Positions 3,017-42,394 of a DNA stretch of 64,000 nt are shown here, piece after piece; positions within the stretch are counted from its first letter, which is position 1, and the number at the start of each line of letters is the position of its first letter. The notes under the pieces were generated by a model, which saw nothing but the letters and a program-made list of their open reading frames with translations, made no database searches and was not told the origin of the DNA. Where the stretch lies: the NCBI GenBank assembly GCA_019753375.1, contig JAIELC010000011.1:74096-138095 (forward strand), read 5' to 3'. Origin of the DNA: Sphingomonas sp. (GTDB lineage Bacteria > Pseudomonadota > Alphaproteobacteria > Sphingomonadales > Sphingomonadaceae). The translations under genes were made by a program, and so were the position numbers.

Positions 3017-3634
3017 ATGACGGTATATTTCCATGAAGAAGACCTGCCTGCCGGCGTCCTGGCCGACGGCCCCATCGCCATCGATACCGAAACGATGGGT
3101 CTGATTACCCCGCGCGATCGGCTGTGCGTCGTCCAGATTGCCGATGGGCGAGGCGACGAGCATCTGGTGCGCTTTGCGCCCGGCAGCGATTATGCAGCAC
3201 CCAATCTGCGCGCCATTCTTGCCGATCCCGCGCGCCTGAAGCTGTTCCATTTTGCGCGCTTCGATCTTGCCGCGATCAGCCATTATCTGGGCGTGACAGC
3301 GGCGCCGGTCTATTGCACCAAAATCGCCTCGCGGCTGGTGCGCACCTACACCGATCGGCATGGATTGAAGGAATTGGTGCGCGAGCTGCTTGGCCAGGAT
3401 ATTTCCAAGGCCCAGCAATCGTCGGATTGGGGCGGCCCCGACCTGTCAGAAGCGCAGCGCGATTACGCCGCATCAGATGTACGATTTCTCCACGCGCTGA
3501 TGGATGAACTCAACATTCGCCTCGCGCGCGAAGGGCGAACCGCGATCGCACAGGCCTGTTTCGATTTCCTGCCGACGCGCGCCGCGCTCGACCTGGCAGG
3601 ATGGCCAGAGACCGACATTTTCGCGCATGTCTGA
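3017..3634 (+). CDS. rnd: Ribonuclease D / 3'-5' exonuclease domain protein
   Basis: 205 aa; IDTETMGL, FHFARFDLAAI, SDWGGPDLSEAQRDYAASDV motifs of DEDD exonucleases. Confidence 0.85.
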   Translation: MTVYFHEEDLPAGVLADGPIAIDTETMGLITPRDRLCVVQIADGRGDEHLVRFAPGSDYAAPNLRAILADPARLKLFHFARFDLAAISHYLGVTAAPVYCTKIASRLVRTYTDRHGLKELVRELLGQDISKAQQSSDWGGPDLSEAQRDYAASDVRFLHALMDELNIRLAREGRTAIAQACFDFLPTRAALDLAGWPETDIFAHV

Positions 3635-5810: not shown

Positions 5811-7307
5811 ATGAGCCTGGCCCCGCGCCTCGACCTGCGGCAGTCGCAATCCCTGGTGATGACGCCGCAACTCCAGCAGGCAATTCGCCTGCTGGCGCTG
5901 TCAAATCTGGAAGTCGAAGCGTTCATCGCTGAGGAAATTGAAAAAAACCCCCTGCTCGAGACCGGCGCGCCAGAGGACGATAGCCCCATCGCCGAACCCG
6001 ATTCGCCTCCTGCGCCGCGCGACGAGCCGGCCAGCGCGGATGAGCTGATCATGGGCGCCGGCGAAAGCGGTGAAGCCGCGCTTGATGTCGATTTTTCGGC
6101 AGAGACCTTTCATCATGATAGTGCCGCGGATTCGGGCGGCATGGACGGTACGCTGGGGTTGAATGGCGCTGCGGGCAGCGCCGCGAGCGAGGATGGCCCT
6201 GATTTTGACAGCTTTGCCGATACCGGCCTGACCCTGGCAGACCATCTGCTGGCCCAGGCCGGCACGGCGGTATCGGGCGCCGACATGTTTATCGCCGCGC
6301 ATCTGATCGACCAGATCGATGACTGTGGCTATTTGACCGCTCCACTGATTGAAATCGCTGGTCGTCTGGGCGTGCCGCTGGCGCGAGTCGAGTCAATCCT
6401 TGCGATTATCCAGACCTTTGATCCAACCGGGGTCGGCGCGCGCGATCTGGCCGAATGCCTGGCCCTGCAAGCCAAGGAGGCGGATCGTTACGACCCCTGC
6501 ATGGCGCGGCTGATCGATAATCTTGATCTGCTGGCTCGGGGCGACATTGCCCGATTGAAGCGGCTCTGCGGCGTCGATGACGAAGACATGGCCGACATGA
6601 TCCGCGAACTGCGCCACTATGATCCCAAGCCCGGCTGCCGTTATGGCGGCGAGCCCGCGCAGCCCGTGGTGCCCGACATCTATGTTGCCCGGCGCAAGGA
6701 TGGCTGGGCGATCGAGATCAATTCGGCAACGCTGCCACGTCTGCTGGTGAACCGCAGCTATTACGCCGAGCTATCCACGGGGCCGCAAAACAAGGCATCA
6801 AAGGCATGGCTGACCGAGTGCCTGGCGAGCGCCAACTGGCTGGTCAAAGCGCTTGATCAGCGCCAGCGGACGATCATCCGGGTGGCCACTGAAATCGTCA
6901 AACAACAAGAAGCCTTTTTCCTGTACGGTGTCGCGCATCTCAAGCCCATGACGCTACGTCAGGTTGCGGACGTGATCGAGATGCACGAATCCACCGTTAG
7001 TCGCGTGACCAGCAACAAATATCTGATGTGCGAACGCGGGCTTTATGAACTGAAATACTTCTTCACATCCGCCATTCAGGCATCGGACGGTGGCGATGCC
7101 GTGTCGGCAGAAGCGGTCAAGAATGCGATCAGGACATTGATCGCGGCGGAAGACGCCGGGGCCATTCTGTCCGATGACACGCTGGTCGATTTGCTGAAAG
7201 AAAAGGGATTCGACATTGCGCGGCGCACAGTGGCCAAATATCGCGAAGCGCTGGGCATTGGCAGCAGCGTCCAGCGGCGCCGGCAAAAGACGCTCGAAGG
7301 AGCCTGA
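5811..7307 (+). CDS. rpoN: RNA polymerase sigma-54 factor
   Basis: 498 aa; N-terminal QSQSLVMTPQLQQAIRLLALSNLEVEAFIAEEIEKNPLLE and RpoN box-like ARRTVAKYREALGI. Confidence 0.96.
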   Translation: MSLAPRLDLRQSQSLVMTPQLQQAIRLLALSNLEVEAFIAEEIEKNPLLETGAPEDDSPIAEPDSPPAPRDEPASADELIMGAGESGEAALDVDFSAETFHHDSAADSGGMDGTLGLNGAAGSAASEDGPDFDSFADTGLTLADHLLAQAGTAVSGADMFIAAHLIDQIDDCGYLTAPLIEIAGRLGVPLARVESILAIIQTFDPTGVGARDLAECLALQAKEADRYDPCMARLIDNLDLLARGDIARLKRLCGVDDEDMADMIRELRHYDPKPGCRYGGEPAQPVVPDIYVARRKDGWAIEINSATLPRLLVNRSYYAELSTGPQNKASKAWLTECLASANWLVKALDQRQRTIIRVATEIVKQQEAFFLYGVAHLKPMTLRQVADVIEMHESTVSRVTSNKYLMCERGLYELKYFFTSAIQASDGGDAVSAEAVKNAIRTLIAAEDAGAILSDDTLVDLLKEKGFDIARRTVAKYREALGIGSSVQRRRQKTLEGA

Positions 7308-39078: not shown

Positions 39079-40179
39079 ATGCGACTCTTCTCTCTGGCCG
39101 CAGCGCCGTGTCTTGCCTGGCTGGCCTCCGCTGGCGCGCCGCTTGCTGCCCAGATCGCCCCGATTGTCGATTTGCCGGCAACCCGGGCGAGCGCGGCGGA
39201 TGGCGTGTCCATCTTCATTTTGAACGATAGCGACGCGGCGCGGGCGCTGATCGCGCCGGCGACCATCGACACAGTGGCGCGCGACGGATCACCCCTTAGG
39301 CTGGCGCTGGATCCGGCGAATCCAGTCGCCGAAACGATTGCAGCGCACGGATTTGTGAAACTTCGCTACCGGTTGGTTGACAGCGCGTCCGCATCGCCCG
39401 CGCCCCCGCATCCTGCCGATATCGCGTCGGGGGACAGCAAGGCTGCCGGCGATCCATCGGGAGAACAGACGCTGACCAGCGCCCGGGGACGTTCGAGCAG
39501 CCTGGCTGGCAGCTTGTATGCGTATGAGCCAAACTATGCGGTCTGGGGCTCTGGCGCGTCGGGCGCGAAGCTCCAGCTGAGTGTCGGTGTAAGGCCATTT
39601 GGCGGCAAGGATATCCTGTCGCATCTGCGCTTTGCCTATACCCAACAGATTTTCTGGCGCGTCAACTATCGCTCGGGGCCGATCCGGTCAACCATTTATA
39701 GTCCCGAAATCTTTCTGGAGGCGCCCATCACGCCCACGCTTCAGATTGCCGGGGGATATCGTCATGATTCAAACGGTGGTGGTGTCACCGATTCGATTGA
39801 CCTGAACCGGCTCTATCTGAAGCTGAACAAGCGCATCGACCTTGGTCATCGCTGGCAGGTCAATCTGACCCCGCAAATCTGGTATGATGTCGGTGATCAC
39901 GGCGTGGCGCCGGATATCGACGATTTTTGGGGCTATGCCGCGGTTACGGCGTCGATCGAGCAGCGCGATGGGATAAAATTTTCCCTATTTGCCCGAGGTA
40001 ATCCTGCGACCGGCAAGGGTGGCAGCGAGTTTTTTCTCTCCTATCCGCTCAAAAGCTTCGGCGCCCGCAATGCGGGGGTCTATCTATTCGGCCAGGCTTT
40101 TACCGGCTTTGGCGAGCAGCTGATCGATTATAATCGCGAAGAAACCCGTGCGCGGATCGGTATTTCCTTGACGCGCTGA
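39079..40179 (+). CDS. pldA: Outer-membrane phospholipase A
   Basis: 366 aa with signal peptide; LYAYEPNYAVWG and YRHDSNGGGVTDSIDLNRLYLKLN (HxSNG catalytic motif). Confidence 0.88.
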   Translation: MRLFSLAAAPCLAWLASAGAPLAAQIAPIVDLPATRASAADGVSIFILNDSDAARALIAPATIDTVARDGSPLRLALDPANPVAETIAAHGFVKLRYRLVDSASASPAPPHPADIASGDSKAAGDPSGEQTLTSARGRSSSLAGSLYAYEPNYAVWGSGASGAKLQLSVGVRPFGGKDILSHLRFAYTQQIFWRVNYRSGPIRSTIYSPEIFLEAPITPTLQIAGGYRHDSNGGGVTDSIDLNRLYLKLNKRIDLGHRWQVNLTPQIWYDVGDHGVAPDIDDFWGYAAVTASIEQRDGIKFSLFARGNPATGKGGSEFFLSYPLKSFGARNAGVYLFGQAFTGFGEQLIDYNREETRARIGISLTR

Positions 40180-40809: not shown

Positions 40810-40941
40810 TCCGCCCAGCCGGGGCGCGCAACCGGGTAATGATGCCTCTGGACATGCGCCCAATTGGCGGGTTTGTTCGCCTAGCCGGGCGTCAGTGTCG
40901 CCCGTTGATGGGGAGGCAACGTGAGGCGGGCTGGGGCAGCG

Positions 40942-41937
40942 ATGACATTGCTGGACGATAAGGTGATGGAGATATTCGATAAGGTTGGAGCCTTTCTTAC
41001 CGAACACCGGTTGGGAGCGGATCCGGTCAATTACGAATTTGCCTATCGGGTTGTGACCACGCCGGATGGTCCGGTCGCCGCCGCGGTACGCGCCATGACC
41101 GAGGGCGGCATTCGTCTGACCCGGAAAGACATTGTCGCCCTGGGCGGAGAGGCCGCCCGCCCCGAGCCCGAAGTGCAAAACCGCGTCCTGCATGACACGC
41201 TGGTGGCGCGCACGCAGCTTCAGGTTGAGAGCTTTGCCGATCTGGTAAAATCGGTGCGCGCGGAAACAACCGACTTTGGCCGCGACCTATTGGCCAGCAG
41301 CGAGGCGATCCGACAGATCGACGGTAGCGTTGCGACCGAAGTCGTCAAGATAACGGGCGCGATGGTGGACCGGGTGCGCGCGACCGAAGATCGGCTGGAA
41401 GCCGCTACGCGGGAAGCGGCGGAACTGCGCCACCAACTGGAAGAAGCGCGCGATGATGCCCGCCGCGACCCACTCACCGGGTTGGCCAACCGCCGCGTGT
41501 TCGAAGAGGGGTTTGCGACCAACCTTGCATCGGGAATCCGGCAATGCGTTGCCATCTGTGACATTGATCGGTTCAAGCTGGTCAACGACAATTTCGGCCA
41601 TGCGGTTGGCGACCGGGTGTTGAAGGCAATCGGCGAAGTCCTTTCCGCGCAGTGCAGGGACCATATCGTCGCACGCTATGGCGGCGAAGAATTTGCCTTG
41701 CTGTTCACCGGCATTAGCGCTGACGAGGCTCGCGCGCTCATCGAAGAAGCGCGCGAGACGGTCGCTAACAAGCGGTACCGGTTACGCGAAACCGATGCGC
41801 CGCTGGGCGCGGTGACTTTCTCCGCTGGATTGACATGTGCCGCGGCGGGCGAGCAGCTCGATACAGCATTTGAACGCGCAGATCAGCTTTTGTACCAAGC
41901 GAAAACCAATGGCCGCAATCAGATCATGCATGATTGA
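40942..41937 (+). CDS. GGDEF domain diguanylate cyclase
   Basis: DPLTGLANRRVFEEGF...DIDRFKLVNDNFGHAVGDRVLKAIGEVL...VARYGGEEFALLF; GGEEF active site. An upstream GTG at 40921 is possible. Confidence 0.93.
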   Translation: MTLLDDKVMEIFDKVGAFLTEHRLGADPVNYEFAYRVVTTPDGPVAAAVRAMTEGGIRLTRKDIVALGGEAARPEPEVQNRVLHDTLVARTQLQVESFADLVKSVRAETTDFGRDLLASSEAIRQIDGSVATEVVKITGAMVDRVRATEDRLEAATREAAELRHQLEEARDDARRDPLTGLANRRVFEEGFATNLASGIRQCVAICDIDRFKLVNDNFGHAVGDRVLKAIGEVLSAQCRDHIVARYGGEEFALLFTGISADEARALIEEARETVANKRYRLRETDAPLGAVTFSAGLTCAAAGEQLDTAFERADQLLYQAKTNGRNQIMHD

Positions 41938-42054
41938 GCAAGGGCCTGGTGTTTTTTACCACATTTCGGCAAAATTTCCGCGATAATGTGGTGTTATGAG
42001 CCATCCCGGCCGTAACGAAACCAAATTAACGTGTATATTCAGATACTTATAGAC

Positions 42055-42072
42055 TTGGCACGCTCCCTGCAA
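42055..42072 (+). promoter_or_regulatory. Predicted sigma-54 (-24/-12) promoter
   Basis: TTGGCACGCTCCCTGCAA: TGGCAC-N5-cTGCA, with 10 nt between the invariant GG and GC. Confidence 0.75.
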
Positions 42073-42129
42073 TCCTGTGGGCATCGCTGACCGGATCGTC
42101 CGCCAGCGCCACGAATAGGGAGATTGATC

Positions 42130-42240
42130 ATGTTTGTACGTTTTGAATCGCTGCCACGCATTGCCACGTCGCTCGTCATTTCGGCGATGTTTGCCAGCCT
42201 GATGCTGGGTGCCGCCACCTCAATCCTGCCGGTTGCATAA
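42130..42240 (+). CDS. Small hydrophobic protein 1 (36 aa)
   Basis: Shine-Dalgarno AGGGAGA upstream; MFVRFESLPRIATSLVISAMFASLMLGAATSILPVA. Confidence 0.6.
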   Translation: MFVRFESLPRIATSLVISAMFASLMLGAATSILPVA

Positions 42241-42250
42241 CCGGCAGGAT
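42223..42250. repeat. Perfect 12-bp inverted repeat spanning the stop of small ORF 1
   Basis: ATCCTGCCGGTT-GCAT-AACCGGCAGGAT. Confidence 0.9.
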
Positions 42251-42282
42251 CACCTGCTGCCGACATTCCCAGGAGCTTTCAA

Positions 42283-42387
42283 ATGACGCCGTTGAAATCC
42301 GTTGCCATCGGGCTGGTCGCCTTTGCCTTGACGACCGTCGCGCTGGTTAGCCAGGTAATGCTGTTCAACCCCGCCTTGGCTGGTTGA
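42283..42387 (+). CDS. Small hydrophobic protein 2 (34 aa)
   Basis: Shine-Dalgarno AGGAG upstream; MTPLKSVAIGLVAFALTTVALVSQVMLFNPALAG. Confidence 0.6.
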   Translation: MTPLKSVAIGLVAFALTTVALVSQVMLFNPALAG

Positions 42388-42394
42388 ACAGCAT
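42358..42394. repeat. Perfect 13-bp inverted repeat spanning the stop of small ORF 2
   Basis: ATGCTGTTCAACC-ccgccttggct-GGTTGAACAGCAT. Confidence 0.9.

Follow-up and report, generated by a model that had tools for sequence, protein, structure and literature searches.

The DNA analysed here is a stretch of 64,000 nt (the window) from a Sphingomonas draft genome of 2.6 Mb that is 88% complete. The locus under study lies on its forward strand and consists of a gene for a GGDEF-domain protein, a promoter region and two tiny ORFs, each with a hairpin across its stop codon. ORF1 (42130–42240) has 36 codons (MFVRFESLPRIATSLVISAMFASLMLGAATSILPVA), a Shine-Dalgarno sequence AGGGAGA at 42117–42123 and the stop codon TAA at 42238–42240. 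ORF2 (42283–42387) has 34 codons (MTPLKSVAIGLVAFALTTVALVSQVMLFNPALAG), with AGGAG at 42271–42275 and TGA at 42385–42387. The initial annotation, made from the letters of the window, had described both small ORFs with their Shine-Dalgarno sequences, and this description proved exact.

The peptide family and its neighbourhood

A search for relatives with the DNA of the whole locus returned short spurious matches only, because this DNA diverges too fast. Matches to ORF1 alone were mostly weak; many of them had one common layout, and therefore an alignment of 19 such sequences (A1) was used as an HMM. The HMM matched 253 of 295 Sphingomonas genomes at E ≤ 0.1, including 230 of the 264 near-complete ones (best E 1e-18; window copy 1.7e-14), and found no ORF1 at this threshold in 42. 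Mostly there is a single locus per genome. Among the 144 loci that we inspected in genomes with a match, ORF1 has exactly 36 codons in nearly all copies and ends in P-x-P-I/V-A in most, and a homologue of ORF2, mostly of 27–35 aa, follows in 116. Changes at the first, second and third codon positions stand at 39233:21647:43445 for ORF1 and 2040:1360:2461 for ORF2, counted over pairs that are not independent, and the second position is the most conserved in both. Across the order, matches to A1 at E ≤ 0.001 were confined to 6 of 80 genera, namely Sphingomonas and a few other members of its family. As judged from these sequences, ORF1 is a true conserved peptide family, and the conservation in relatives that had been proposed as a check is thus found for both ORFs. 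The structure model of ORF1 is one helix, covering residues 3–31 (pLDDT 82.8).

Neither ORF has a Pfam or NCBIfam match, and so neither matches the curated PspA, B, C, D or G families; a PHROG match to ORF2 (E 0.011) was too weak for use. ORF1 occurs in tandem in G016 (L009/L071) and G413 (L261), and G287 has two separate ORF1-ORF2-like loci (L259, L268).

The gene upstream (40921–41937, start codon uncertain) encodes a GGDEF domain of the diguanylate cyclase type (PF00990, E 3.9e-37), and the closest named relatives of its product are mostly from Sphingomonas. A motif test found the C-terminal motif of this protein upstream and on the same strand in 116 of the 144 relatives, so the synteny with this gene that had been suggested for checking is borne out. 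On this motif evidence the GGDEF gene is a conserved upstream neighbour of the ORF pair, which does not imply co-transcription. One Sphingomonas metagenome-assembled genome carries the closest GGDEF gene (53% identity), yet behind that gene (L274, after position 3318) the promoter and both ORFs are missing, an apparent natural loss of the unit. From this case and the 42 genomes with no ORF1 match, we conclude that the unit is dispensable.

Promoter and activator site

Upstream of ORF1, at 42056–42070, lies a sequence with a −24 box TGGCACG and a −12 box TGC(A), which is kept in relatives and was also found by a pattern search of the own genome. The pattern TGGCA[CT]-N6-TGC stands 66–77 nt before the ORF1 start in 143 of the 144 loci, and the sole exception is the second copy of the tandem pair in G016. 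The consensus over the ORF1 loci is aaAaYTGGCACG-N5-TGCAA, and by its sequence and position the element is a sigma-54 −24/−12 promoter. The gene for sigma-54, rpoN, was found in every near-complete Sphingomonas genome searched, and because it is universal in the genus its co-occurrence is uninformative as a test. The own rpoN (PF04552, G000:C1:80899-81378) also lies in the window, at about 6804–7283, some 35 kb from the ORF pair. A sigma-70 promoter was rejected, since a consensus scan of both strands of the region found none.

This result bears on the reading of a type I toxin-antitoxin locus with the two peptides as its small hydrophobic toxins, to which we give hardly any credence. The size of the peptides, their one hydrophobic helix and the strong mRNA structure would suit it, but a locus that is mostly single in each genome, genus-wide, syntenic with the GGDEF gene and headed by a stress promoter, with no sigma-70-type promoter on either strand, speaks against it.

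A palindrome of the form TGGYG-N5-Y-N-CCA is found upstream of the sigma-54 promoter at ORF1 loci. In the window there are two putative PspF activator sites, TGGTGTTTTTTACCA at 41947–41961, with a matrix score of 16.5 against a 95% shuffle level of 6.4, and TGGTGTTATGAGCCA at 41989–42003, a TGG-N9-CCA element 67 nt before the −24 box. Upstream of the ORF1 promoters, TGG-N9-CCA was counted 118 times against 11.8 ± 3 in shuffled sequences, while spacers of 7, 8, 10 and 11 nt were rarer than in shuffles. When the sigma-54 sites of five genomes were scanned, the palindrome was absent at glnB, flagellar-type and PEP-CTERM-like genes (named by eye) and present at pspA, a gene identity supported by further search. 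We then scored other promoters with an activator matrix trained only on ORF1 loci. All 18 pspA promoters of the genus exceeded the 95% shuffle level, with a median of 19.5 and a site usually about 90 nt upstream, against a median of 1.8 and 5 of 23 above that level for other sigma-54 sites. Fair scores occurred at two other sigma-54-like sites, L193 (G033:C1:3082996, 15.7) and L183 (G033:C1:609739, 9.0), which may be further PspF targets or chance. The enterobacterial PspF site TAGTGTAATTCGCTAACT has been published (PMC4987338), and a comparison by eye finds it similar in layout to the palindrome at ORF1. Literature searches on Sphingomonas PspF or PspA returned nothing relevant.

The pspF and pspA genes adjoin in divergent orientation, and the own genome has both (pspF in G000:C48). 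We infer that the protein bound at the ORF1 palindrome is PspF. It is very unlikely that the locus, though sigma-54-dependent, answers to another enhancer-binding protein: each genome does encode several sigma-54 activators, but the palindrome is that found at pspA, beside pspF, in the same genomes, and it is rare at other sigma-54 sites. Regulation of the ORF pair by PspF and sigma-54 is thus strongly supported by the promoter comparison, and the combination of a pspA-type activator site with a sigma-54 promoter places the locus in the phage-shock response. The initial annotation was right about the peptides and missed both of these upstream elements.

Hairpins across the stop codons

Hairpin 1 (42223–42250) has arms of 12 bp at 42223–42234 and 42239–42250, and its loop GCAT is made of the last codon, GCA, and the T of TAA. 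Hairpin 2 (42358–42394) has arms of 13 bp at 42358–42370 and 42382–42394 with an 11-nt loop, and the stop codon of ORF2 lies inside its 3' arm. The perfect hairpins reported earlier across both stops are therefore real features of the window. A listing of inverted repeats in the whole window, with arms no more than 40 nt apart, contains just three that pair without a mismatch over 12 bp or more and do not overlap (I13, I14 and I15); hairpins 1 and 2, at consecutive stop codons, are two of the three. Folding, which had been recommended as a check, found both far more stable than shuffles that keep the dinucleotides: −21.4 kcal/mol (z −6.4) for hairpin 1 and −23.3 kcal/mol (z −4.5) for hairpin 2.

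Among relatives, the stem across the ORF1 stop outperformed controls with shuffled downstream sequence in 40 of 144 loci at p ≤ 0.05 (29 at p ≤ 0.01), and that across the ORF2 stop in 29 of 116 (16 at p ≤ 0.01), when control positions were significant in 10/144, 3/116 and 2/144 (1–7%). One geometry, in which the tetraloop consists of the last sense codon and the T of the stop, is common: among strong stems it accounts for 31 of 45 at ORF1 and 15 of 37 at ORF2. The loops are often GCNT. In the GCNT register, pairing of the ORF1 stem over 94 less-redundant sequences averaged 0.566, compared with 0.517 after permutation of the partners (z 5.5, with species relatedness partly controlled); the first two stem pairs were left out of this mean because the conserved codons and the stop nearly force them. 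Pairing dropped to 0.26–0.41 when the register was slid, at least 7 contiguous pairs were present in 23 sequences against 6.6 expected, and pair 7 is found as C-G, T-A and G-C. With the register fixed as GCNT, ORF2 showed no significant covariation (z 0.2). Covariation is thus seen at the ORF1 stem and not at ORF2 in this register, and the stems recur above chance but are significant in only about a quarter of species, being weak or absent in most.

The hairpins are real and probably selected in some lineages, as their recurrence suggests, and dispensable in most species. We regard them as auxiliary: their recurrence exceeds chance and the ORF1 stem covaries, yet significance is reached in only about a quarter of species. 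The two-cistron membrane-peptide locus of the initial annotation stands, and the part that it gave to regulation by mRNA structure was overstated, as the hairpins are facultative and secondary to the peptides and the promoter.

Neither hairpin is followed by a U-run, and a scan of the + strand found no terminator-like site; on these grounds ordinary intrinsic terminators were rejected, in keeping with the earlier view that simple termination explains them poorly. That the stems are ordinary terminators lacking a U-run, with no further role, is correspondingly unlikely; their place at cistron ends, with hairpin 2 at the end of the unit, would agree with it, but hairpin 1 stands between two cistrons of one unit and the geometry of the stems is linked to the stop codon. 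By analogy, the most likely role of the hairpins is stabilisation of the mRNA. In the puf operon of Rhodobacter, intercistronic hairpins stabilise mRNA segments, and there too a strong stem with no U-run directly follows small membrane-peptide genes. Unlike the puf stems, those of the ORF pair span the stop codon itself, often have a GCNT loop and are facultative among species.

Relation to the phage-shock genes

Among the systems with which bacteria meet membrane stress, the phage-shock response is a central one; in G018 its genes stand in the order pspA-pspB-pspC. Most pspA operons examined in the genus open with a tiny hydrophobic ORF similar to those studied here (for example MTYQAATLRNAFVAVAFTFLASAIFMAGAVGPAIA), mostly 66–87 nt after the promoter, and a strong hairpin precedes pspA in 11 of 16 tested operons (z ≤ −2.2). 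In sister genera, an ORF1 homologue behind the same type of promoter has a PspC-like gene directly after it, and four of the PspC-like proteins encoded there match PF04024 by domain search. These arrangements, with tiny ORFs and hairpins before pspA and, in sister genera, before pspC, favour the reading that the two ORFs act as regulatory leaders: a downstream gene would be tuned by their translation and hairpins, and the peptides would have no function of their own. We consider this quite unlikely, since the sequence and length of the ORF1 peptide are conserved, no PspC motif lies downstream of ORF1 within the Sphingomonas locus stretches examined, and the gene after the unit is on the opposite strand in several loci inspected by eye.

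We consider it likely that ORF1 and ORF2 form a second phage-shock transcription unit, controlled by PspF and encoding two membrane microproteins, and very probably the peptides are undescribed parts of this membrane-stress response. Their size, helix and company suggest a role at the membrane. In E. coli, PspF is freed from PspA on membrane stress. Likewise, damage to the inner membrane would release PspF from PspA, and PspF would bind the palindromes at 41947–42003 and activate the sigma-54 RNA polymerase at 42056–42070. The resulting short mRNA would yield two single-helix membrane microproteins, which would work at the membrane together with PspA/B/C. Hairpins at the stops might keep 3' decay away from each short cistron or insulate it, so that peptide dosage is high; a function in dosage is our guess, drawn from analogy.

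The closest parallel in a known system is PspG of enterobacteria, a target of PspF and sigma-54 outside pspABCDE, which like the ORF pair is a small membrane protein encoded in a separate unit with a sigma-54 promoter and a PspF-type site (the PspG site is listed in PMC4987338). The ORF pair differs from it in that it encodes two peptides, from cistrons of 36 and 34 codons, where PspG is one longer protein; it also has the stop hairpins and no Psp Pfam match. The parts used here of a 2024 comparative survey of phage-shock partners contain no such microproteins (PMC11237479). An unclassified, genus-wide peptide pair that is apparently on the switch of pspA offers a handle on the role of PspF-controlled small membrane proteins, and its locus is a testable case of RNA stems across stop codons.

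The leader ORF of pspA in Sphingomonas resembles ORF1 in promoter, activator site, spacing, hydrophobic helix and the hairpin after it, and differs in a GAVGPA-type C-terminus followed by pspA. The two may be homologous; comparison of their profiles by hhalign gave 20%, and weak bridges occur in G384, G425 and G413. A wider reading, which we put forward tentatively and hold at slightly less than even, is that the Sphingomonadaceae have a PspF-controlled microprotein family at the head of psp units, be it in front of pspA, in front of pspC or as a pair by itself, with dosage-setting hairpins across or just after the stop. If true, it would add to the phage-shock response a class of component and an mRNA architecture that have not been described for it.

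Several details of the region before pspA can be mentioned separately. At L209, L214, L216, L217, L218, L221, L231, L235 and L237, strong hairpins that are perfect or near-perfect, for example GCCGCCGGAAGGG-N7-CCCTTCCGGCGGC, separate the tiny leader ORF from pspA. Elsewhere in the order, in other families, the psp promoter and pspA have between them a different small ORF with a basic C-terminus, such as MNMLTQLSEAF...RRRERARRAR (L208, L210, L211, L212, L219 and L230). In G010 (L182/L223) the leader position has no tiny ORF but codes for a protein of 162 aa whose start resembles a signal peptide. The pspA operon of the own genome (L220, G000:C48) has no hydrophobic leader, and a frame from an upstream ATG runs in-frame into PspA.
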